A stretch of DNA of 64,000 bases from Lineus longissimus (Eukaryota; Nemertea; Pilidiophora; Heteronemertea; Lineidae), in contig NC_088313.1 in assembly GCF_910592395.1 (NCBI RefSeq), forward strand, positions 6,140,501 to 6,204,500, written 5' to 3'. Positions 3,069 through 64,000 of this stretch are shown piece after piece. Position numbers and translations under genes: made by a program. Each line of letters opens with the position of its first letter. Position 1 is the first letter of the stretch. The notes beneath the pieces were generated by a model. The model was not told the origin of the DNA. It did no database searches and saw only the letters and a list, made by a program, of their open reading frames with translations.

Positions 3069-3455
3069 CGAAAAAGAAGAAAAAGTTAGAAGACATACAA
3101 TAACAATGATACATGAAGATGGAATAAAGATAAGACCATTAGAGGATTCAAAGGTCTGAAAGTAGATTCAAGAATAAGTCACTTTAACTACAACAAAGTA
3201 ACAAATTTAGAAGGGAAAAAAAAACACACCAAATGTGATAAAAAAATTTAGAAAATTACTGATTTTGCGTTTTGTAAGTTTCTCTAGTTTCCACACTATT
3301 CCAGATTACTCAGTTTTCCAATACCACTATTGAGTAGAAGACTCAAAACTTATACCAACATGAACCAGTCTAGTTAGCACAACACTCTACACAAGTACAC
3401 ATTTACTTGACATAGTCTTTCAGGTGGTTTGGAGCACTTGAGACTCTTCCTGTTC

Positions 3456-5065
3456 TCAACTGTTCTGGAGGTTTAGAAGCAGGAGTAGGAACTGACCTGA
3501 CTGGAGCTGAACCTGGAGGACCAGAAGCAACAGGCCTTGGAGCTGCAATAGCAGGAGTTTCTGGTGGCCTGGGCTGAGTAGCAGCTCAGTTTCCTCATTC
3601 ATCAACAGATGGCGCCTCATGGGCTCATAGATTCCAGATTCTCTCGTTCTCAGAATGTGTCTCCTGTTTCTAACTATGGTCTTGCCAGAGGGTGTGACCA
3701 ACTTGTATGACCTTGGACCATCAGCCTCAGACACAAATTTGGCTGGTGTCCAGGTTTTACCAGTTCTGTACCTCACAGTATTATTTCTAGTCAAGTTTGG
3801 AAGTTGTTTTCACATGCTTGTCATAGTGTACCTTGTTTCTGGCTTTACATTCTTGCAACCTGCCAGTCACTTGCTTTGGGGACAACAATTTAGGCTTCAG
3901 CAGTGACGGATTTGTAGGCAATCTAGTCTGTGTCCTTCGTCCCATACACCTTTGTACAGGGGAACCCAAGACATTGTCTCTAGGGGTGTTCCTATAGTCC
4001 AACAAAGCCAACTGAAAATCTGTGCCATCTTGCCTACACTTCTTCAGCATGTTTTTAGCAATCTGAACTGACTTTTCTGCTAGGCCATTTGCCTGTGGAT
4101 TCTTAGCACTGAATGCCTTGATTTCAAACCCCCACTGGGTACTGAAATCTTTCATATCACGACTAGTGTACTCCGAGCCAGGATCAGAATACAAAGTCCT
4201 GGGGATGCCATGGGTGGCAAAGACTCTTTTCAGTTTGGATATGACAACAGGTGCACTATGATCAGGTTTCAGTTCATCCACTTCAAAATACCCAGAATAG
4301 TGATCTACAGTCACAAGATAGAAATCATCATCTAGTACAAACAAGTCTGATGAAACAGACTGCCATGGTAGAGTTGGCACAGGAGTGCTCATCATAGGCT
4401 CTTTCTGCTGTTGACTTCTACTGGCTTGGCACAATGGACATTTGCTTACAGCTTCTTCAATCTGCTTGTTCATTCCAACCCAAAACAGAACGTCTCGAGC
4501 CAGCTGTTTTGATTTGACAATCCCTTGATGCGAACTATGTATCAACTCTACCATGTCCTTATGCATCTGCTTGGGTACAATGACTCGCTCTCCTTTGAAA
4601 AGGATACCATCATACACAGTGATCTCTGCCCTATAGTCCCAGTATGGCTTCAGAACATTTTCTACCTTGGCTCTGTCATCAGGCCAACCTTTGACAACCT
4701 GGTTTCGCAACTTCTGCAACTCAGCATCATTCTCAGTATTTGTCTTCAACAACTTCAGTTTGGAATCAGAGAAAGCATGTACAGTAGGAATCTCCATAGC
4801 ACAGACTTGGTAGGTGGTAGTCATGCATGTCATCAACTAGGCCTCTGTAGTGACAATCTTTCAATGGAGCTCAGCTCAGACAATCAGCAACAGGAATATC
4901 TTTCCCTGACTTTCCTATCAGTTTGGAACTGTATGGTTGCAATTTCAACCACATCTTCTGTAATCTCAAGGGAACTTGTCCCAAGGGTTTCTCAATGATG
5001 TGGACAAGAGGCAAATGGTCTGTCTCTACTGTGATGTCATTTCTGCCATACAGTAGGTGGTGAAA
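3456..5065 (-). pseudogene. gypsy RNase H end and integrase, 3' part of pol
   Basis: Coding resumes at 5065 with FHHLLYGRNDITVETDH, the rest of RNase H, ending near the ADCLS motif where a TGA stop sits. The integrase frame (4836-3787) has the zinc-binding H100, H103, C133 and C136, and the catalytic triad D164 (SSDLFV), D218 (YSDPGSEY) and E254 (GLAEKS), with 35 residues between the last two as expected. The C-terminal part (3794-3456, with TVRYRTGKTWTPAKFV) is in a third frame. Stops and frameshifts at about 4865, 4830 and 3790 make it non-functional. It is the downstream half of the gene that begins at 15142, displaced by the nested 7.7-kb insertion. Confidence 0.88.
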
Positions 5066-5086
5066 GGGCATGTTCACTTTCGTTTT
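5066..5086. repeat. left terminal inverted repeat of Spy-type element
   Basis: Twenty-one bases match the right end (12775-12795, inverted) with one mismatch (A for C at the fifth base). The core TGTTCACTTTCGTTTT is perfect. Similarity ends after this, so the TIR is short. Confidence 0.85.
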
Positions 5087-7021
5087 GTGACCAAGTTTTG
5101 TGATCCTTGGGAAAACGGAAAAAGCGAGGAATTTGAAAATTGCAGGGATGATACAATGATTAAAATGATTAATATTGGGTGAAATGACAATTCGTTTACT
5201 TGTCATTAACTAAGACAAAAGAACAATTGAACTGATTAGGCCTTGTGAAAATGCCATGATTTTCTAAATATTACTTCAGAAATGGGTTGTGCCGGTCATG
5301 AGAGCTCCAAATAATCCAATAATTTGATTCATAATTATCAGAAACACCCCAAAAAAATGACTTTGAAATTCATCGTTTAAGGGAGAGTTGACCTCAGATG
5401 AACTATTAATTCCTCAAGCCATTTTAAAAATAGCCATTCATTACTTCGAGTTGGGTATTACATGAATCTGTTTGTAACACAGCAGATTGAACCATTCAAC
5501 TGTGGGGGTGTGCACTGCGTGCTGGACAACAATGGCCACAGTGAACAATGAAGGCCTAGGGTTCATAGGCCTATAGAATGGCAGATGTGCTGAGCTGCCA
5601 TCATTTTCCTATTGAAGGACACAAAAAGCCAATTGTTTGAGTTACCTGGGCCTACTGCTGATGAACTTTCTAATAGTTTTCTTTACTTTTAGCTCCTAAA
5701 AATGTCGTAATAAATGTATTGAATCTCAATATGGCCCTACTCTTTCATAAAAATGACTTGTTCTTCATCAAGAGGGCATAATGAGAATGAATGATGTCTA
5801 TAAAAGTGATCAAATCCAAATGGACATCAGAAAGAAAAGAAATGATAATAAAATGAACCATTTCATCGCATTTGCTACAGATAAGAGTTGGGTTTTCCCC
5901 TGGATATCACCAGTCTTCCTGTTGCCTTTTTTTTCTTCAGGGTGTTTCTAACAAATGAAACCAATGGCAAATATGAAAGCGGATACCAGTACCATTTCAT
6001 TTGTGAGAAAAGTATAGTTTGGTGTTCATAAGCCTACTGTCAACACATCTATACTAGGCATGCTTGAAATCCCTCAATTGTGAAGCACCCACCACAATGA
6101 ACTGCATGCAGTGAAAACTACCCAGTGGACTTAGGGGACAGACACACCAATAAGAGGACTTTGTATGGCAATGAATGCTTTAGATGATAAGGGAAAGAGC
6201 AAGCATTTGGCCTTCTGGTTTGATGTTCCCCCCCCCCCCCGATCAGTGTGATATAGCTTATTATTGTAGTTTGTTTTTTCTTCTATGAACAGAACTTGTG
6301 TTGAACCGTGCAAGGCATACATTTTTAGTTCAACAACAAATGGATTTGATTACATGAGGTTGCCAAAATCATCATCAGCGCCACCATAGGAGTAAAGAGA
6401 AACAATCGGACAGAATTTGCAAACCAGGAAAACATCCCAAGTGCGCATGTGCGATCAATCATTTTTGCCTGGGGCGAGGTGGCAGATTATGACCAGTTGT
6501 TTATCTTTTCTCCAATGGTGGCACTGATGTCAAGTGTGGCAAATGAAATGATGATTACCTCTGAGACATACACTGGAAGTGTTATTTGTGACAAATAACC
6601 CCATATCTAATTTAACACATTATTCTTTCAAAATTAAACCCAAACTATTTTAGCATTTGTCATCTGAACATTGTTATTCTTCTAATTGCCCGAGGAATTT
6701 ATTGTCTGGCCATGCTATTGATATACTACTGTGAAGCCTGCAACGCATCTGAAATTGAAAAACGACACTGGTTATTAGAGAATAAAACTTATGGTATAGG
6801 TTGTCCTACCTATCTGCAATCAACTGCCCATAAATGGAATCATCAGTCACATCCCCATCAGTTTATCCACAGTCAGAATCACCAGTAATCCAAAGGAACA
6901 AAAGATAATCCAGGACTTGAATCCAGCTAAAGTATGCTATGAACACAGTCTAGGCCAAAAATTGAACGTCAGAATCATATGAATCATATGAATCTAGTCA
7001 AACTGCTTTTATGAACATAGT
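5087..7021. other. 3' non-coding arm of Spy-type element
   Basis: About 1.9 kb between the left TIR and the end of the USP-like ORF. I see no open frame of note, only a C-tract at 6228-6240. It probably holds the 3' untranslated region and transposase-binding sites. Confidence 0.5.
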
Positions 7022-8272
7022 CTAGGCCAAAAAGAAAACATTCAGGGTAAAGTTGTTCCCTTGTTGGTCCCAAGGTGATGCAGCCACTGGTTGCCTATCA
7101 TCATCCATCCTCCACCAGATGTTGTTGGGGTCTCTTAGATAGGCGAACCAGTGGCCCACATTGCACTGGTCCCCAGAATGGCACATGATGCCTTGAATTA
7201 TCTTGCCATCTAGGGTACCTCCCTCTGGAGGTCTAATCTTGGTCATGCACTTTTGATTGCCTGATCGTCTGTTGACCTCGATTATAGTTATAGGTCCATC
7301 TACAGTGATCTGAAACCCCTGCGAGTGGCGTTCACAGACTCTCCCATTTCGTCCTTGGAATTGACAGTGACCCTGGAGAATACCTGAATTTGCAAAGTGA
7401 TCATGGTAAAGATCGATAAGTGACACTGCTTGGGGGCCACGTGGAACGTTAATCCTTAACACGGTGCCATCCCTCACCAACTGTAAGTCAATGTGCCCCA
7501 GGGGGCAGTGGAATTGCCCTGGCCACGAAGTGAGAACTCCTTCAGGTATACTGAGTTTTTCCAACAAGCTCATTAGAAATTCTCCTGCATCCTGGTATAC
7601 TCCTAGCACATACCCTCTCCCATCAATTGTGGTATTCAGAGTGGTAATGAGTTCCTGGACAGAGAAAGGTGCACCCTGTCCAGCCATCCTGGCACAAATA
7701 TCAAGAAAGGTGTTGTCCACAAGATTTGGTTGATCACCTTGTATGTGCTGGCCAAGATTCACATGATTTAAACACTGGAGCACAGCATTGCTGTAGCAAA
7801 TGTTTGCGTCATTGATCAGTCGTGATCCTGGATATTGGGGCGGCATGGGCTCATCATTCCTGTCCACATCAGCAATGTTGGTCACTTCAGAGTCATGGGT
7901 GTCAGGGATCTCAGATTGTTGGGGACTTGTGCTCTGTTGTGGTGGGCGTTGTCTTTGTGTCCTACGGAAAACTGGTGTGCGACCCCTTGGCGCAGTGTAG
8001 CGAGGCTGAAGGGGTTCTGGCAGCTTTGGGTCGGCTAGATGACATTTTCTTACTACAGGATCCCGAAACCTCTCCTCAGCACACAGTATCATCAGAAGTG
8101 CGGCTACATGGGCATCTGACGTGAGCATACGGGAGCCAAGGTCCCTCTTGGCAGCTGTCCCACAAGTCCAACCACAAAGTCTCTGTAGCGGCCCAGTAAA
8201 TCCTAGATAGTTCTCCAACTCGCTGTTCCTCGGTGAACCACTCTGTGTGAACACTACTAGAGGCCGTTTCAT
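7022..8272 (-). CDS. ubiquitin-specific-protease-like protein (peptidase C19 type) of the transposon
   Basis: A 416-residue frame from the ATG at 8272-8270. USP hallmarks are present in order. The Cys box is LINDANICYSNAVLQCLNHV, with the catalytic Cys near residue 159. A QDAGEF box lies at about 227-232. A Cys-rich middle segment (HCPLGH, GHCQFQGRNGRVCER) could bind zinc. The His box VGHWFAYLRD has its His near 374, followed by WWRMDDD with the Asp near 390. Known USPs remove ubiquitin from proteins with this Cys-His-Asp/Asn triad, so a deubiquitinase role is inferred. The N-terminal 150 residues are Pro/Gln-rich and unrecognised. The frame stays open upstream to a GTG at 8347, so an upstream start or frameshift fusion with the transposase is possible. 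I prefer the ATG because it overlaps the transposase stop. Confidence 0.8.
   Translation of the reverse strand: MKRPLVVFTQSGSPRNSELENYLGFTGPLQRLCGWTCGTAAKRDLGSRMLTSDAHVAALLMILCAEERFRDPVVRKCHLADPKLPEPLQPRYTAPRGRTPVFRRTQRQRPPQQSTSPQQSEIPDTHDSEVTNIADVDRNDEPMPPQYPGSRLINDANICYSNAVLQCLNHVNLGQHIQGDQPNLVDNTFLDICARMAGQGAPFSVQELITTLNTTIDGRGYVLGVYQDAGEFLMSLLEKLSIPEGVLTSWPGQFHCPLGHIDLQLVRDGTVLRINVPRGPQAVSLIDLYHDHFANSGILQGHCQFQGRNGRVCERHSQGFQITVDGPITIIEVNRRSGNQKCMTKIRPPEGGTLDGKIIQGIMCHSGDQCNVGHWFAYLRDPNNIWWRMDDDRQPVAASPWDQQGNNFTLNVFFLA
8269..8272 (-). promoter_or_regulatory. ATGA stop-start overlap between transposase and USP-like ORF
   Basis: On the minus strand the transposase ends in TGA (8271-8269) and the next frame starts with ATG (8272-8270), sharing ATGA. 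In some eukaryotic retroelements this layout supports termination-reinitiation, so one mRNA could give both proteins. The alternative is frameshifting in the 79-base shared open region 8347-8269, or alternative splicing. Confidence 0.55.
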
Positions 8273-11200
8273 GTTCCCGGGTTTCTGTTCGTCCTGTTTG
8301 CCGATGGCATTTTCATCGTTATGATGGTCACTCCTGTCTCGGGCCACTGGAAGTAAGTTTCATTGTTCCAGCCATCCGGAATCTCATCGACATTTGTGAA
8401 GTAAACACGGGTGGTAACTGGAAGTTCACGTGCCATGTCCCAGTATTCAGCAATACTTTCGAATTGGCCCATTTGAGCACCGATTTCGAGTTGCTTACAA
8501 TGGGTAATGTAAGAACAACCCCTACGAACCAAGTACGGTCCAAGAGTGAATTCGTATATCTGCTGTGCACTAAGAGCCGGCAAGTCAAGGCGGTCTCTGA
8601 GTTGACCAATGTCTCCGACTTCAACACTGTTCCACTGAATACTCCTGGCAGAAGGGAACTGCAGCACATGAGGAGGAAGAGTGACTGAGGGGTCATGCAG
8701 GAAGTTACTGATGTTGAGTCGGTGCTTAATCAGCTTCGCCAGGCGAACCTGCTCCTGATCATCCACGAACTTTATGTTGAATTTTGCATGGAACTGATTG
8801 AAATGTGACACTGCAGCTAGCCATATAAGGTAGATACGAGGACAATTCACATAATCATTAGGTATACCATATTTGTTGCAAAATTGTTCTCCAAGTGGTT
8901 GGAGGAACTGATAAGGTATTATGTCCAGGATTTTTTCATCAGCAATAGCTCCATGAAATTGTTCTACTCCGAATCTGAGCTTTCCAACTATGATTTTGCT
9001 GTTTTTTGTGAGAACAGGGTCGCTGGGAGATGCCGTCATCTCAATTTTACCACTTGTTGGATCAACTTGGAGAATATCCTCATCCCCCTCACTAGGCCAT
9101 ATTAGCCTGCAACCATTCTCAGAACACCACTGCTTCAGATTTGTCACATTTTGTTGGCTTACATTATGTGGCACATAGATGTACCCCTTGTCCACAGCGA
9201 GTATCACGAAGTAGTCCGAGGTTCCTTGAAGGAGAGACAGAAGTCCCTGAGGTGCGACCTCACTGTCAGCCTGACTTTCGCATAATTGCAACTCAACACC
9301 ACACAGATTGCTATCACCACACCTTGGGGTGGCTGCTGCAGCCACAGGAAGTGTCAAAACCACATGTCCTGTAGTATCCACCAAAGTAGAAAAGGTTATG
9401 AAATGCCCTCCCTTTTTGGAATAATAACAATCCTTCTGTTGCTCATAATCCATTGAGTTCTGCACCTTCACTTTTTTAGAATCCATGCTTGCAGCAACAG
9501 GCATCCTTGAAGAACCATCTTTTGGATCAGAAAAGTAGGACAGCAACTCACTATGGATGGGGGATTCTCGACCTTTCATATTGGAGTAAACATCATTTTT
9601 CTCAGAGTCACTTAGGTTACCAAACCACTGCAATGGAAGGCTTGAGCTATTGAGAATGTCAGCACACAACTCAGTCCAGAAAATGTCATTGGCAGTTGGC
9701 AGACCTATATCAAAGTACGCAGCCAAATCACGAAACTCTACGTTACTCCGCATTTTGTGCCGATACAACAATACTCTAGCAGAAGGATCCAAACTACGGC
9801 AGGTTGACTTCTGGGTCCTCCCCTGCTGATGCTCCCACACAAGCAGCCAGAACTGTTCCTTTTTCATGCCTGTGAGATTCTCTAGCTTCCAATCTGGCAT
9901 CATCCATGGCTTTCGCATGTGATTCCAGTCCCGTCGTCGGTTCTCAGGCCATTCATGTCTTGGAAACTCAGCATCATAGCAACTGTCTGATACCCCATAA
10001 ACATATGTTCCATCAGTGTTGTTTTCACTGCGGCTGGAGGTTTGGCCAGGCCTATCGTTGGGACTGGCAGTTTCAGAGTCTACGTCGTTGTTAGCAGCAG
10101 TCTCCGGTTCATCATCAGAAGAGGCGGTGTCCATTGGTTCATCATGGCTGGCGGTGTCCATTGGTTCATCATGGCTGGCGGTGCCGATTGGTTCATCATG
10201 GGTGGCAGTATCAGCGTCATCATGTTGACCATCAATTGTCCCATTGCCTTGGACGTCTGGATTACCTTGGTGATATTGAGCCTGTAATAGAACAAGGAAT
10301 TGTTGCAGTTACTAGTGAGTTATACATGACACTTTGCACTTTGCAGGTGGGCTGCTGTAGGCACATGCCTTCCCTATTTAATACCTTTTTTCTCCAGAAT
10401 CAAATGATTTTAGTTTTAATCAGCTGAAGGCTTTGACAAAGTAGTGGTTCATGAACTTACAGCAGTCATCCAATGCATGGCAGTACCAGTCCCAAGTGTG
10501 CAATTTCAGAAACTAGTAGACCAATTCAGAAAGTGCTGATACTTGGTATCAAATGAAAATGTACCATGAATACATTTTAATTGAAATGTTACAATTGCTA
10601 GGTAAAATCATTTTATATCTTTAAAACACTGAAACCTGGCAGAGAAAGAACTGACCACCGGTGTAAACCTTGAGGGTAAAATGATGTTTACATCGTATTT
10701 CTAATCTTTTGCTCTAAAAATCAGGAATCTTCGTTTTAGATACCGTATACGCAAATATTTTTGTGAGGAAAGATTTCGCGATTTGGCCCTGCACTGACTA
10801 TTTCGCGAGGAATAATGTTCGCGATGGGATCCCAAAAATCTTTGTAGAAAATTCCGATATTCTCCTGATCGATGGAATTGGTGCTAATCACTCTGAAAAA
10901 ATCACAGAAATTCGTCACTGTGTGGTTGTTTTCCTAGAATTTTCCTTGTTTTGATTTATGTTCGCGGGGAATAATCTTCGCAATACCGAATTAAATTATT
11001 GTGTATACAGTAAGTAGGCATTTCGTGTGTTACTCAATTTCAAGAGTGCAATAAATCATTGCAATCGACTGATATTTTCTGAAATCGCCCTTGGGACATG
11101 GACTGACCTTACCCCTGCAGCCCCTTATGGAATCTTTGATCTTAAAAAAAGTAAAAACTACCAACCTACGCTATATTTTTTAGTTTTGTTATCAGAAACA

Positions 11201-12220
11201 CAACCTAACAAAAAAGCAGTACACCCGGTAATGGTATTTCTAAGAATCTATGAACGTTTTTGGTAGTTTTCACTTTTTATAAACAATCACTATTCCAAGT
11301 TGTAAAGCCCATTTACAATGTACACAGCATCCTCATCAGAGGAAGCCCTATGCACATTTCATGTACATTTTTTTTGGTTTTCACCCTGGCCCATATTGCT
11401 GGATTGGCAGCCCTTTCTAAACTAGTGGAGATACTGTAAACCCCCTTATTTTCGCTAGTGACTTGATGACCGTATTTCACCCTTTAATCAAATGTCTCCT
11501 ATGGCAATCTAAAAATGCATGATAAGAGTAATACAATTTCGTGCCTTTTACTTGTATTTTTGCGTTTAACGAGAAAAACATTTAAGAGGTTTACAGTACT
11601 CCAGAGGATTTTCAAACATGGTGGCTTTCCCGAATTTGACAATGGCCACCTGTTGGCCTGGGTCGTATGTACACACCCTCTTCAATGAATAGACCTCTTG
11701 CCTTAGTCTGACTCAGGGGCCGATTGGCCGGGGGTAAATTCTAATGGCTTCATGAATTGTGAATCCCTGTATCTCAAAATCAACTTGGCCGATTTTCGCC
11801 AAACATTTTACTGAAAGTCTAGATCAGCAACATACCATTTTTTTACAAATCTCTGTAGAATGTTTATCATGTCTACAAGCAGAAAAAGTTTGGTGAAAAT
11901 CGGTCCAGTAGATTTTAAGATATAGGGATTCACAATGTATAAACGACATTAGAATTAGCCCCCCCCCCCCCCTCCATCAGCCCCTTTATCGGACAAAGGC
12001 AAGAGGTCTATACAAAACCCTCACCAACAGGATGGCAAAGCTGCTCAAATCGGGAAATCGACGATGTTCGAAATGCATTGGTTCACATAGTTCGGAGGAT
12101 AATACTTACAAACAAATCTCTATTTATGCAGTAATGCCGAAGATGTCTTTGTAGATTCGAAATTCGCTGTCCACTCTCATGTATCAATGCCCCACAACCT
12201 TCACATACATGGAGCACCAT
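8269..12220 (-). CDS. Spy-type DDE transposase with N-terminal zinc finger, two exons
   Basis: Exon 1 (12220-12110, 37 codons) encodes a C2H2-like finger (CEGCG with QRHLRHYC) and ends at the donor GTAAGT. Exon 2 (10281-8269) follows the acceptor TTCTATTACAG; both junctions are phase 0, giving about 707 residues. Exon 2 starts with 9-residue acidic repeats (HDEPMDTAS type), then a helix-turn-helix-like region (VEFRDLAAYFDI), then a DDE core. In exon-2 ORF numbering from the ATG at 10161, the proposed catalytic residues are D227 (MDSKKVKVQ), D324 (AVDKGY) and E400 (FGVEQFHG), the DDE_Tnp_4/IS5-like pattern. The enzyme would cut and paste the element using its TIRs. The reading frame has no disruption, so the copy could be active. 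The stop TGA overlaps the ATG of the USP-like ORF. Confidence 0.8.
10741..11012. mobile_element. MITE, TA-flanked, in Spy intron
   Basis: The left end TACCGTATACGCAA and the inverted right end TACTGTATACACAA form short TIRs with TA at both edges. The interior has repeated TTCGCG/TTCGCGA motifs. It is about 270 bp and non-coding; its Tc1/mariner-like class is a guess from the TA. Confidence 0.5.
11432..11598. mobile_element. MITE, 167 bp, TA-flanked, in Spy intron
   Basis: The ends TACTGTAAACCCCCTTA and, inverted, TACTGTAAACCTCTTA form the TIRs. The same insert is present at 63571-63737 in the second copy, so it was in the intron before the family copied itself. Confidence 0.6.
11690..12010. 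mobile_element. fold-back MITE, 321 bp, in Spy intron
   Basis: Two imperfect arms of about 130-150 bp are inverted copies of each other. Both begin TAGACCTCTTGCCTT and include GTGAATCCCT and CCGATTTT(C/A)(G/A)CCAAAC matches. A C-tract lies near 11960-11974. The same element occurs at 63159-63479 in copy 2. Confidence 0.65.
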
Positions 12221-12774
12221 GTCTAAAGCTGGCAGTCTTCATTCAATGCACAAACGTCTAATGTGTTCTGATGGTAGAAAGCATGCTGGAATCTTGACAA
12301 AAGGAACTATTAGGAATGATGATGTAACATCTTATGGTTTCCTTGACCCTATTCAAACACTAGACATTAGACAATATTTTCATGGACAGGGTCCCTGCAG
12401 AAACTCATCTGTTGAATAGATTGTTCTCATTCATGCACAGCTCTATTGTCTGAATGACAGAATACAAAGCAGGTGCTGTCTTTGAATAGCTCAGCACCTA
12501 TTATTGATAAAATCCTCCCTTCCAAAAGACCCTATGATCCGGAAAAGTGTTACATTCTCCAGAGAGTAGGCCTAAAGGCACATTACGCAACCACAAGTAA
12601 TCTCAATCAACAATGCATAACCAATTTATAAAGGGTAACAACACCTTTCACCCCCAGAGAGGAAATGGGGCAGTCTGACTCGAACTTCACTAAGATGGTC
12701 ATGTAATCACCTTATAGGCCTAGTAATGACATAACATTCAGGGTGATCATAACGACCCTATTTCTTAACGTCTT

Positions 12775-12795
12775 AAAACGAAAGTGAACAGGCCC
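12775..12795. repeat. right terminal inverted repeat of Spy-type element
   Basis: AAAACGAAAGTGAACA followed by GGCCC ends the element, directly before TTT. The same terminal sequence begins the second copy at 62374. Confidence 0.85.
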
Positions 12796-15142
12796 TTTCC
12801 TACAAGCAAACACTATGGCCAGAAGCTCTTTTTCAATCTGTGCATATGCTCGTTCAGTCTGAGTCAGGGTTTTAGATGCATATGCTATAGGGTGGTCATG
12901 TTGCATCAAGACCGCACCGAGGCCCCCCAATGAGGCATCGCAAGAAACCACTATCGGCTCAGTCTTGGAGCGACACAGTCACACCTTCATCAGTCAAAAC
13001 ATGACCAGTGTAATCTACCTCTGGCTGCGCGAACATGCACTTACTCAACCTGAACGTCAAGTCGTTTTCACGTGCTGTCTCTAGTGTTTTCCTCAGTACT
13101 CTACAATGGTGCTCAATGTCACCTGTGTGCAACAAAATATCATCGAAGATATTGGCGAAGTTTTCCATCCCAGCGAACATTTCTTCTATAGCCCGCTGGT
13201 ATATCTCTGGAGCAGACTTGACACCCATAGGAAGACGTTTGTACATGTAGTGCCCCCAAGGGGTAGAGAAGCAAGTAAGCAGTTGACTCTCATAGTCCAA
13301 CTGTAGCTGGAAGAAACCTTGATTAGCATCAAGTACTGAAAAGTACTTGCTACCCTGAACCTGAGTGAGTACATCTTCAAGTGTTCTAATAGGATGGGTC
13401 TCTCTGAGCAAAGCCTTATTCAAGAACTTTGGATCTATACACACGCGTACTGACTTGCCATCTTTCTTATGCACTACATGCAGTTGACTACACCAGGGTG
13501 TTGGGACACCGGGTGGTACCTTGGAAATAATGTCATTACCCTCTAGGAAATCTATTTGTTTCTTGGTCATATCTCTCAGAGCTGCTGGTATAGGTCTACT
13601 ACCATATGACACTGGACCATCTTTGTACTCTGGATCAATGGACAGATGAAACTTACCAGGTAGCTTGCCAACCCTTTCATCAGGAAACCTGTCTGGAAAG
13701 TCCCTAAGTACCTTCAAGATAGGTTCTGGTACTTTCTCAACATTTGAAATGCGCTTCAGGAATTTGTCATCAAACAATGGCTGGTCTCTGACATGGAATA
13801 CACACTTCACTAGGCCTAACCTTTCACTATCCTTTGCACCGAGAAGATTTGGCACATTGCCAGGTACAACCTCACACTCAATTGAGTGTGTTTCACCCTT
13901 CATGATGACATCAAATGTTGTTTTGCCAACAGGCACTACAGTAGTGTTACCAAAGGCAGTGATGGTAGATGCTGTGGACTTGAGCTGCAGGTGACCATGC
14001 TGTTGCATTCTGTCAAAAGAGGTTTTGGACATGGTGTTGCAATGAGCCTGTGTATCTATTTTCATTCTAATGGCACCACGTCCATTTTCATAGGGAGTAT
14101 GCAGCAGTACAGTCCAAGTATCACCAGCACTGTCTCTAGTAGTTGATCTAGTCTTGATAGAGTATATGTGGAGGGAGTCCATCTCCTCAGTGGGCTCATA
14201 ATCATATGACCATGACTGTTCTTCATCATAGTCACATTCACCATCGATGAAACACACGTTCTTTTTCAAGCACTTTCTCTCGAAATGACCATACATGTGG
14301 CAATGTCTACACTGTTGATCATAGGCTGGACACTGTCTAGGGGCATGTTGACGACCACACTTTTGGCATGACCCATGATACTGATTTTGGCTGTGGCTGC
14401 GACGTCCACGACCATACCCGCGTTGCTGAGCTACTCTTGGGGTTGAGCGTCCACGTCCATGATGTTGACTCGCAGTGGCACCTCCACGGGGATAGTTTGT
14501 GTACCCGCGACCCCGTGATCTAGATCGACTACCACCACACCCACGATAGGCTGCGTTCACTTCCTTATCACCAGCAGTGTTGTTATGCTTTTTAAACAAC
14601 CCTGCACTTTCAGCACGTAGTTCGAATGTCTGGCACTTTTCAATCGTTTGCTGCAACGTCAGATCCTCGTCCCACAGCTTCTTCCTTAATACTTCGTCTT
14701 TGACACCGTTAGAAATCTGAAGAGACATCATTCGGTCCTCTTTGTCACCGAATTCACACAATTTCGCTAGGCGACGCAGGTCAGTGATATAATCTGAAAT
14801 TGTCTCATTGCTGGCCTGCATCCGCTTTTGAAACTTGGTAATGTGGCTTTTAACCAGTTTCTTTGGTTCAAAGTACTTATCAAACGCTGAGCAGACCTTG
14901 TCGTACTTGTCCTTGTCAGCGTCTGCTTCGAACACCAGTTCATTTTGAAACACTTTCATGTACTGCTTCCCCATTTGATACAGCAAGAGGGACACCTTCT
15001 GTTTCTGTGCTGCTGTTCCTTGCCCACTAGCAAGGAAATATAGATCTAGTTCGTCCTTGTATTCTCTCCATGAAGTGGCGAGCACTCCCATGTCGTGAGA
15101 GGCGGGGGTGAACTTAGGGGGAAGTATTCCCTGAACGGCCAT
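12796..15142 (-). pseudogene. gypsy gag-protease-RT, 5' part of gag-pol
   Basis: From the ATG at 15142 a 727-residue frame runs through a capsid-like region, an RGRG-rich stretch (about 200-250), two CCHC knuckles (C259-C271 and C278-C291), an aspartic-protease-like site (KIDTQA, residues 362-367) and an RT (SVRVCID near 565; FSVLDA, motif A, 601-606; FDDIL, motif C, 666-670). The protease site has Q where family members usually have G, and motif C has F in place of Y. The frame ends at 12959 right after RT. The sequence resumes in another frame with SCDASLGGLGAV, the start of RNase H. The usual connection segment between RT and RNase H is missing, so an internal deletion with frameshift is inferred. 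Coding then stops at the nested Spy insertion after CRK. Confidence 0.9.
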
Positions 15143-23837: not shown

Positions 23838-24959
23838 ATGACAGAGCATTTGCTCACTATTAATGCAAGCTACTCTGGAGGTGCTTGTGCATTTGCTTCG
23901 ACAGGTTTGCAGCAACACTGCACGGATATGTTTATGCGAATTCGACAACAGAAAGTTTACAAAAATCACATAGATCGAGATGAGATCTCACCAGCGACTT
24001 ATCGCAAGTTATTTCGTTTCGAGGAAGAAAACGTGGAATGGCTTGCAGCGACATTTCTGCCCGATACAGTCGAGAGCAGAGGCGGGTGTATGACTCCATT
24101 GGCACGCATGGAGACTACGTTACACTACTTGGCGGATCCTGGTTACCAGACAAGTGTGGCAGAGCTGATGGGCGTTACGCAGCCTACCGTTTCCAACTGC
24201 GTTTCCAGCACTATAAACAGTATTGCTGAGCAACATCCACGATGGATTATTTTCCCATTTTCTGATGCTGATGCCACCCTGGCAAAGGAGCGATGGGCGG
24301 ATAAGCTCGGCTTTCCATTTACGCTGGGAGCGATCGACTGCACTCATGTAAGAATTGACAAGCCTGGTGGTCCGTTTGGCGACGAATTCATCAATCGAAA
24401 GAACTTTGCCTCCTTTAATGTTCAGGCGACATGTGACGAAAAGTAGTCCTTTACAAGTGCCGATGTAGGATGGCCTGGATCAGTGCACGACTCGCGTATA
24501 TTCCAAACATCGGAACTACACGCTCTGGTTTCAAGGAACGTTCATGGCGTTCTTCTTGGTGATTCTGGTTATGGAATTGCACCCTACATGATGACACCGT
24601 TTACTGACCCAAATACTCCAGCTGAACGATACTTCAACCGCGAACATGCGAAAAATAGAGTGGTAATAGAACAAGCTTTTGGACAGTTAAAAAGACGGTT
24701 CCCTATCCTCCGTTATGGCGTCCGACTAAAACTAGACAACGTACCCAAATGTATAATTTCTTGTTTTGTTTTGCACAATATTGCAAAAGTGTTGAACGAT
24801 GCTGATGATTTTGACGATGAAGAGCAGGAACATGAGGTTGACGACCAGGGTCAAGAAGCACCTGCACCCTTGGCGGCTCGGCAACTGCGACTGCAATTGA
24901 ACCAAAAACGCCAAGAGATCACAAACTTCCTGTATGACAGACATCACCAGCGTGTATAA
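23838..24959 (+). pseudogene. Harbinger transposase with a single in-frame stop
   Basis: A frame of 374 codons from the ATG at 23838 has one TAG (24444-24446), where relatives have a sense codon in the strand after NVQATCD. Without it the protein has the HTH-like region (TSVAELMGVTQPTVSN, about 105-120) and a DDE_Tnp_4 core: D167 (GAIDCTH), D242 (LGDSGYG) and E278 (VVIEQAFG). An acidic, Gln-rich tail follows. The family cuts and pastes at 3-bp targets together with a Myb-like partner, here encoded on the opposite strand at 27022-25723. The reading frame is the same on both sides of the stop, so this is a recent point mutation, an assembly error or, less likely, readthrough. Confidence 0.88.
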
Positions 24960-62373: not shown

Positions 62374-64000
62374 GGGCCTGTTCACTTTCGTTTTAAGACG
62401 TTAAGAAATAGGGTCGTTATGATCACCCTGAATGTTATGTCATTACTAGGCCTATAAGGTGATTACATGACCATCTTAGTGAAGTTCGAGTCAGACTGCC
62501 CCATTTCCTCTCTGGGGGTGAAAGGTGTTGTTACCCTTTATAAATTGGTTATGCATTGTTGATTGAGATTACTTGTGGTTGCGTAATGTGCCTTTAGGCC
62601 TACTCTCTGGAGAATGTAACACTTTTCCGGATCATAGGGTCTTTTGGAAGGGAGGATTTTATCAATAATAGGTGCTGAGCTATTCAAAGACAGCACCTGC
62701 TTTGTATTCTGTCATTCAGACAATAGAGCTGTGCATGAATGAGAACAATCTATTCAACAGATGAGTTTCTGCAGGGACCCTGTCCATGAAAATATTGTCT
62801 AATGTCTAGTGTTTGAATAGGGTCAAGGAAACCATAAGATGTTACATCATCATTCCTAATAGTTCCTTTTGTCAAGATTCCAGCATGCTTTCTACCATCA
62901 GAACACATTAGACGTTTGTGCATTGAATGAAGACTGCCAGCTTTAGACATGGTGCTCCATGTATGTGAAGGTTGTGGGGCATTGATACATGAGAGTGGAC
63001 AGCGAATTTCGAATCTACAAAGACATCTTCGGCATTACTGCATAAATAGAGATTTGTTTGTAAGTATTATCCTCCGAACTATGTGAACCAATGCATTTCG
63101 AACATCGTCGATTTCCCGATTTGAGCAGCTTTGCCATCCTGTTGGTGAGGGTTTTGTATAGACCTCTTGCCTTTGTCCGATAAAGGGGCTGATGGAGGGG
63201 GGGGGGGGGGCTAATTCTAATGTCGTTTATACATTGTGAATCCCTATATCTTAAAATCTACTGGACCGATTTTCACCAAACTTTTTCTGCTTGTAGACAT
63301 GATAAACATTCTACAGAGATTTGTAAAAAAATGGTATGTTGCTGATCTAGACTTTCAGTAAAATGTTTGGCGAAAATCGGCCAAGTTGATTTTGAGATAC
63401 AGGGATTCACAATTCATGAAGCCATTAGAATTTACCCCCGGCCAATCGGCCCCTGAGTCAGACTAAGGCAAGAGGTCTATTCATTGAAGAGGGTGTGTAC
63501 ATACGACCCAGGCCAACAGGTGGCCATTGTCAAATTCGGGAAAGCCACCATGTTTGAAAATCCTCTGGAGTACTGTAAACCTCTTAAATGTTTTTCTCGT
63601 TAAACGCAAAAATACAAGTAAAAGGCACGAAATTGTATTACTCTTATCATGCATTTTTAGATTGCCATAGGAGACATTTGATTAAAGGGTGAAATACGGT
63701 CATCAAGTCACTAGCGAAAATAAGGGGGTTTACAGTATCTCCACTAGTTTAGAAAGGGCTGCCAATCCAGCAATATGGGCCAGGGTGAAAACCAAAAAAA
63801 ATGTACATGAAATGTGCATAGGGCTTCCTCTGATGAGGATGCTGTGTACATTGTAAATGGGCTTTACAACTTGGAATAGTGATTGTTTATAAAAAGTGAA
63901 AACTACCAAAAACGTTCATAGATTCTTAGAAATACCATTACCGGGTGTACTGCTTTTTTGTTAGGTTGTGTTTCTGATAACAAAACTAAAAAATATAGCG
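62374..64000 (+). mobile_element. second Spy-type copy, left arm, cut by window end
   Basis: Begins GGGCCTGTTCACTTTCGTTT directly after AAA (62371-62373). It is the reverse complement of about 12795 to 11170 of the first copy, almost identical by eye, including both intronic MITEs (63159-63479 and 63571-63737). In this orientation the transposase and USP-like ORF should lie to the right of the window. Confidence 0.88.
62949..63059 (+). CDS. zinc-finger first exon of Spy transposase, copy 2
   Basis: ATG at 62949 opens 37 codons with CEGCG and QRHLRHYC (a C2H2-type finger) and ends at donor GTAAGT (63060). It matches exon 1 of copy 1 (12220-12110). The remaining exon is outside the window. Conservation of the frame and splice site in both copies supports the exon model. 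Confidence 0.7.

Follow-up and report, generated by a model that had tools for sequence, protein, structure and literature searches.

A Spy-type DNA transposon of Lineus longissimus with a transposase fused to a predicted ubiquitin-specific protease

Spy transposons characteristically insert into AAATTT without duplicating their target (PMC4482050), and the five Spy elements presented in PMC11304231 are described with a solitary open reading frame (ORF) of about 700 aa. The latter paper, in whose main text the words 'ubiquitin' and 'protease' do not occur, also reports that Spy elements of insects and an oyster function in human cells. Protease domains directed at ubiquitin-like proteins are known from other transposases: OTU or Ulp1 domains are found at the C-terminus of Ginger1 transposases, where a role in repair after transposition has been suggested for them, and a protein of Trichomonas vaginalis that combines a transposase_11 with a Peptidase C19 domain is mentioned in one sentence of the same paper (PMC2836005).

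Here we describe an element of 7730 bp in the genome of the nemertean Lineus longissimus. It occupies positions 5066..12795, with its genes on the minus strand, of a stretch of 64,000 nucleotides (contig NC_088313.1, positions 6,140,501 to 6,204,500 of the forward strand) which was analysed as a whole and is hereafter called the window; positions are those of the window unless stated otherwise. The original prediction, made from the letters alone, was of a Spy-type DNA transposon with a DDE transposase and, in a second undisrupted ORF, a ubiquitin-specific protease (USP) not known from Spy, PIF or ISL2EU elements. Comparison with related copies indicates that the transposase and the USP are ordinarily parts of one protein. 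The claim of novelty holds in part: we found no report of a Spy, PIF or ISL2EU element with a USP in the open-access literature, judged mostly from titles and the beginnings of abstracts, so that a USP in Spy is apparently unreported, but the general idea of protease domains on transposases has been published for OTU and Ulp1 and, with the Trichomonas protein, for C19 itself (PMC2836005).

A single frame in a Spy-type element

In the window copy, an ATG-initiated ORF of 630 codons (8269-10161, minus strand) covers most of the transposase part of the inferred second exon (8269..10281, minus strand), and an ORF of 416 codons plus stop (7022..8272, minus strand) encodes a C-terminal domain, a linker and the USP domain; each of the two is open. 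In eight of the ten copies of this family (family A), transposase and USP form a single open frame of 1095 codons, in the order transposase, conserved C-terminal domain, variable linker and USP. In the window copy this frame falls into two parts of 679 and 445 codons, and in copy L018 it stops after 940 codons, each of these two copies having one length difference of a single base within the fused frame. The conserved C-terminal domain corresponds to approximately the first 95 residues of the 416-codon ORF; families B, E, D, F1 and F2 share 53-70% of its residues with the window family. A single frame was likewise found in families B and E (1078 and 1102 codons, respectively), while in family D the start of the transposase lies on a separate piece and is followed by a single frame of 959 codons. 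Judged from these relatives, the two ORFs of the window copy are one gene frame that was broken in that copy and not separate genes, which corrects the earlier picture of two undisrupted ORFs.

The transposase stop codon (8269-8271) overlaps the ATG of the USP ORF (8270-8272) in an ATGA motif, an arrangement from which separate transposase and USP proteins might be produced by stop-restart translation. We rejected this candidate mechanism because the sister copies are fused: eight of ten near-identical copies, as well as families B and E, are devoid of a stop between the two parts, and the window copy departs from them by its one-base length difference. Separate proteins made in this way are thus very unlikely.

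The bounds of the element could be fixed to the base. The sequence GGGCATGTTCACTTTCGTTTT begins at 5066 and its inverted partner GGGCCTGTTCACTTTCGTTTT ends at 12795, yielding terminal inverted repeats (TIRs) of the form GGGC[A/C]TGTTCACTTTCGTTTT at 5066..5086 (plus strand, gene 3' end) and 12775..12795 (minus strand, gene 5' end), and the element is flanked by AAA on one side and by TTT on the other. The 21-nt TIR pattern occurs 21 times in the 391 Mb genome (with at most one mismatch); 20 of these occurrences are the paired ends of ten elements and the remaining one is a stray TIR-like site with a mismatch. Because 20 of the 21 sites pair into ten elements and the reversed control pattern occurs nowhere in the 391 Mb, pairing of the TIRs by chance can be excluded. 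When the two 60-base flanks were joined, the resulting 120 bases matched over their full length at eight other places in the genome (four at 100% and four at 99% identity), the only two further matches being both halves at the window's own insertion site. Since the joined flanks occur uninterrupted at eight other places, the insertion must have split AAATTT without duplicating bases; the eight empty sites are taken to be other copies of the host retrotransposon. The original prediction of a DNA transposon with clear TIRs at this place was therefore accurate, and by the target-site criterion the window element is of the Spy type, as had been proposed. The host itself, recognized by eye from its ORFs, is a Ty3/Gypsy-like retrotransposon (3456-15142), inside which the element sits with the halves of the pol gene on either side.

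The ten copies of family A that bear both TIRs differ from each other by 2-14 substitutions over about 7.7-7.8 kb, or by 2-9 if the damaged copy L018 is set aside. One of them, L011, is cut by the end of the window (62374..64000, plus strand; 1627 bp at 100% identity, with AAA preceding the TIR), and its frame is open over 1095 codons in the genome. All ten copies are flanked by AAA on the left and nine by TTT on the right, the exception being L011 with AAG; in families B and E, AAA was found at three of the five left ends seen and TTT at all six right ends seen. By these differences family A is young, and the existence of near-identical copies in which the fused frame is open suggests recent activity of the element.

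The residues proposed for the DDE triad are D227, D324 and E400 of the 630-codon ORF, and the triad is invariant in five sequences (there D178, D275 and E351). In a profile comparison with five DDE_Tnp_4 proteins encoded in this genome (E=1.8e-4, probability 48%), the three acidic residues came into register, in agreement with the predicted DDE-type transposase; two smaller sub-alignments against DDE_Tnp_4 were not significant (E=0.32 and 0.062). Pfam matches of the transposase fall below the cut-offs, the best being 5.9e-4 for HTH_Tnp_4 and 0.01 for DDE_Tnp_4. We place the transposase tentatively in the PHIS superfamily because of its target site, these sub-threshold matches and the profile alignment.

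DDE_Tnp_4 matches proper are numerous in this genome (at least 150). One lies within the window (24333-24779, plus strand; E=5.1e-35), is of the PIF/Harbinger type and contains one internal TAG. Beside another, at locus L038, the longest ORF (2-1039 of that locus, plus strand) encodes a YqaJ-type-nuclease-like region followed by a PHD-like cysteine cluster, as read by eye, in the manner of ISL2EU.

Identity, descent and constraint of the protease domain

The 416-codon ORF matches PF00443 (UCH) in two stretches (E=3.1e-11), its 43.8 bits exceeding the cut-off of 23.9, and the same Pfam family was found in four of five family members scanned; the one exception is a fragment that lacks the USP part. 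When PDB was searched with a profile built from seven relatives, 66 sequences scored E 0.01 or better, with USP36 as the best match (1.7e-8); 60 of the 66 are listed, and every one of these is named ubiquitin carboxyl-terminal hydrolase. Residues N154, C159, D228, H374 and D391 are identical in all seven aligned USP sequences, and the Cys and His boxes of the window USP align with those of USP36. From the alignments and the spacing in USP7, we take C159, H374 and D391 to be the catalytic triad and N154 to be the oxyanion Asn; the codons of the proposed Cys159, His374 and Asp391 lie at 7796..7798, 7151..7153 and 7100..7102, respectively, all on the minus strand. Among five fused or partial proteins, one gave in addition a weak match to Josephin, another deubiquitinase family (E=0.03), and an NCBIfam scan of two fused proteins gave no match. 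The USP-like ORF with its active-site boxes has thus withstood the profile search that had been recommended for it, and on these matches the window element carries a real USP domain, for which deubiquitinase activity may be predicted.

A transposase query returned 60 matches in the genome, which were merged into 41 loci, and a USP-domain match lies directly downstream in 38 of them; one of the other three has the C-terminal domain alone and two are fragments with neither. There are two further USP loci without a transposase match upstream. All these counts are lower bounds, obtained with merging distances of our choosing. The USP domains of six other lineages are 37-55% identical, and the USP diverges faster than the transposase (e.g., 55% versus 65% amino-acid identity between A and B). 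Two groupings, A+B+B2 and D+F1, are well supported and common to the trees of seven transposases and of seven USP domains; the deeper forks are weak. These data would most simply be read as one old fusion event after which both domains descended together. Viral contigs were searched with the USP, with the transposase and with alignments A2 and A1, no relative being confirmed by tblastn, and a scan of prokaryote genomes with alignment A3 found none; this is expected, because the element is a eukaryotic transposon.

Constraint on the USP becomes visible when lineages are compared. The ratio of nonsynonymous to synonymous substitution rates (dN/dS) of the USP is 0.172 for B versus B2 and 0.134 for A versus B2 by the NG86 method, and about 0.17 and 0.20, respectively, by maximum likelihood. 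Neutral simulations (300 per pair, stops disallowed, transition bias 2) gave means of 0.82 and 0.83 and minima of 0.47 and 0.50, so that both between-lineage values lie under the lowest simulated one. The ten young copies behave differently: their USP ORF shows eight nonsynonymous changes and no synonymous one, and the transposase two of each, so that the dN/dS below 1 proposed for copies of the same family is not observed. This within-family comparison rests on 12 coding changes in all and is hence uninformative; the 8:0 pattern is as expected from drift of copies after insertion. Constraint on the USP, as far as these two pairs indicate, is visible over long times only. The earlier argument that both ORFs being open suggests selection is accordingly weak for the window copy, but selection as such is upheld by the between-lineage dN/dS of 0.13-0.20 (two pairs).

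The unconstrained USP ORF of the young copies is also what one would see if the window copy had captured a host USP by chance, without a role. The presence of a USP at 38 of 41 transposase loci already refutes such a capture by its spread in the genome, and the absence from other family members that would have marked it is not what we found; constraint between lineages and the agreement of the supported groupings in both trees speak against it as well. We consider a chance capture scarcely credible.

All things considered, we regard the element very probably as a Spy-type transposon with a transposase-USP fusion. Several results weigh against our overall reading, the 8:0 pattern and the low Pfam scores of the transposase among them. 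One of the young-copy changes hits a Trp of the USP that is invariant in the alignment. NG86 returned no usable dS for 18 of the 21 USP pairs through saturation, and these were left out; the A-B2 dS of 2.55 is itself near saturation, and the B2 locus is broken, its open piece having supplied the sequence. A search of PDB with the transposase profile yielded nothing significant, its single match being chance-like (E=0.69). The structure prediction that had been called for to confirm the USP fold gave unusable AlphaFold models with one and with seven sequences (mean predicted local distance difference test scores of 35 and 34). Finally, the USP-fused lineage is known from one genome.

Inferred 5' exon and other protease-bearing loci

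The family A gene probably has two exons. The putative first one (12110..12220, minus strand; 37 codons, zinc-finger-like and then followed by GTAAGT) is suggested by splice signals seen by eye and by a stretch of 31 residues that is 52% identical (E=4e-6) to the family B 5' ORF. The putative intron (10282..12109, minus strand) would run from GTAAGT to the CAG acceptor before the long ORF, which by eye is in the same phase as the donor. Zinc-finger-like motifs are also present in the 5' ORFs of families B and E, which are 34-36% identical and are followed by a splice-donor-like sequence; their zinc-finger matches fall below Pfam cut-offs. Within the putative intron lies a fold-back repeat (11686-12014) with arms of 61 and 49 nt that are 84% and 78% complementary, perhaps a nested small element.

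USP domains were also encountered in ORFs of other kinds in this genome. At locus L033 (G000:C9:3977400-3984400), an ORF on the plus strand (3355-4596) encodes a replication-factor-A-like domain (E=3.7e-13), and the next one on that strand (4943-7000) matches UCH (E=4e-19) and DUF6570 (E=5.3e-9). The locus looks like a Helitron-like element carrying a USP, DUF6570 being presumably linked to Helitrons. At locus L034 (G000:C3:11241600-11244200), the region 1020-2600 on the plus strand contains a UCH match (E=2.4e-25) and then an Ulp1 protease domain (Peptidase_C48, E=1.9e-11); similar UCH matches occur at C3:11412375 and C3:11417675, and the arrangement of UCH with Peptidase_C48 is present in at least three similar places. 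This is perhaps another mobile element, with two proteases.

Possible function and comparison with known systems

The main gene product would consist of the zinc-finger-like N-terminal exon, the DDE transposase, the C-terminal domain, the linker and the USP at the C-terminus. With both enzymes in one chain, the protease would act in cis, wherever the transposase is. The tethered USP could deubiquitinate the transposase and also proteins located at the ends of the transposon, and the transposition complex might thereby avoid proteasomal removal for long enough to complete cutting, joining and hand-over to repair. Deubiquitinase activity, substrate and benefit are all predicted here from sequence comparison, and for the identity of the element and the cis mechanism taken jointly we see the case as evenly poised.

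As the main rival to action in cis, the tethered protease could have host substrates at the donor or target DNA (ubiquitinated histones, repair factors or silencing factors, for example) and so ease repair of the excision site or blunt silencing. The present sequence evidence is common to both, and a role in repair has been proposed for the OTU and Ulp1 domains of transposases (PMC2836005); a target in cis, however, requires fewer assumptions, and we regard action on host substrates as possible but doubtful. The domain might also bind ubiquitin without need of catalysis and recruit the transposase to ubiquitinated chromatin or partners. The faster divergence of the USP relative to the transposase would fit such a role, but the proposed catalytic residues are invariant in all seven sequences, and binding alone appears improbable. 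The preferred reading thus remains that of a protease acting in cis.

That several families keep the fusion suggests that ubiquitin removal helps the element to move. We consider it rather probable that the elements form an undescribed Spy-type lineage, old and recently moving, whose transposase is itself a predicted deubiquitinase, and they would widen the range of protease classes on transposases. If the Helitron-like and Ulp1-linked USPs prove to be independent captures, mobile elements would need ubiquitin removal recurrently, and a further deubiquitinase class would supply it here. The old proposal that eukaryotic DNA transposition involves the removal of ubiquitin becomes testable through the single proposed catalytic Cys.

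Of the described systems, ISL2EU and PIF/Harbinger elements have DDE transposases to which that of the window family is probably related, and commonly an accessory protein, but theirs is a separate ORF (YqaJ or Myb/SANT) and their target duplications are AT or TWA (PMC4482050). Helitrons with VTD or OTU resemble the window family in carrying a deubiquitinase domain within the transposon's main protein, whereas they are rolling-circle elements and these domains belong to other protease classes (PMC9741609). Ginger1 elements likewise have a ubiquitin-like-protein protease domain at the transposase C-terminus, yet their transposase is integrase-like and the protease, OTU or Ulp1, is of another class (PMC2836005). 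The Trichomonas vaginalis protein comes closest in its protease, with a C19 domain and a transposase in one protein, but the transposase is of the transposase_11 type and the organism a protist, the comparison resting on that one-sentence mention (PMC2836005). With Spy elements (PHIS superfamily; PMC4482050, PMC11304231) the window family shares AAATTT insertion without duplication, short TIRs starting with G and one main transposase gene; it differs from them in that its frame includes a USP and, at 1095 codons, exceeds the ~700-aa ORFs of PMC11304231 by about 400 codons.

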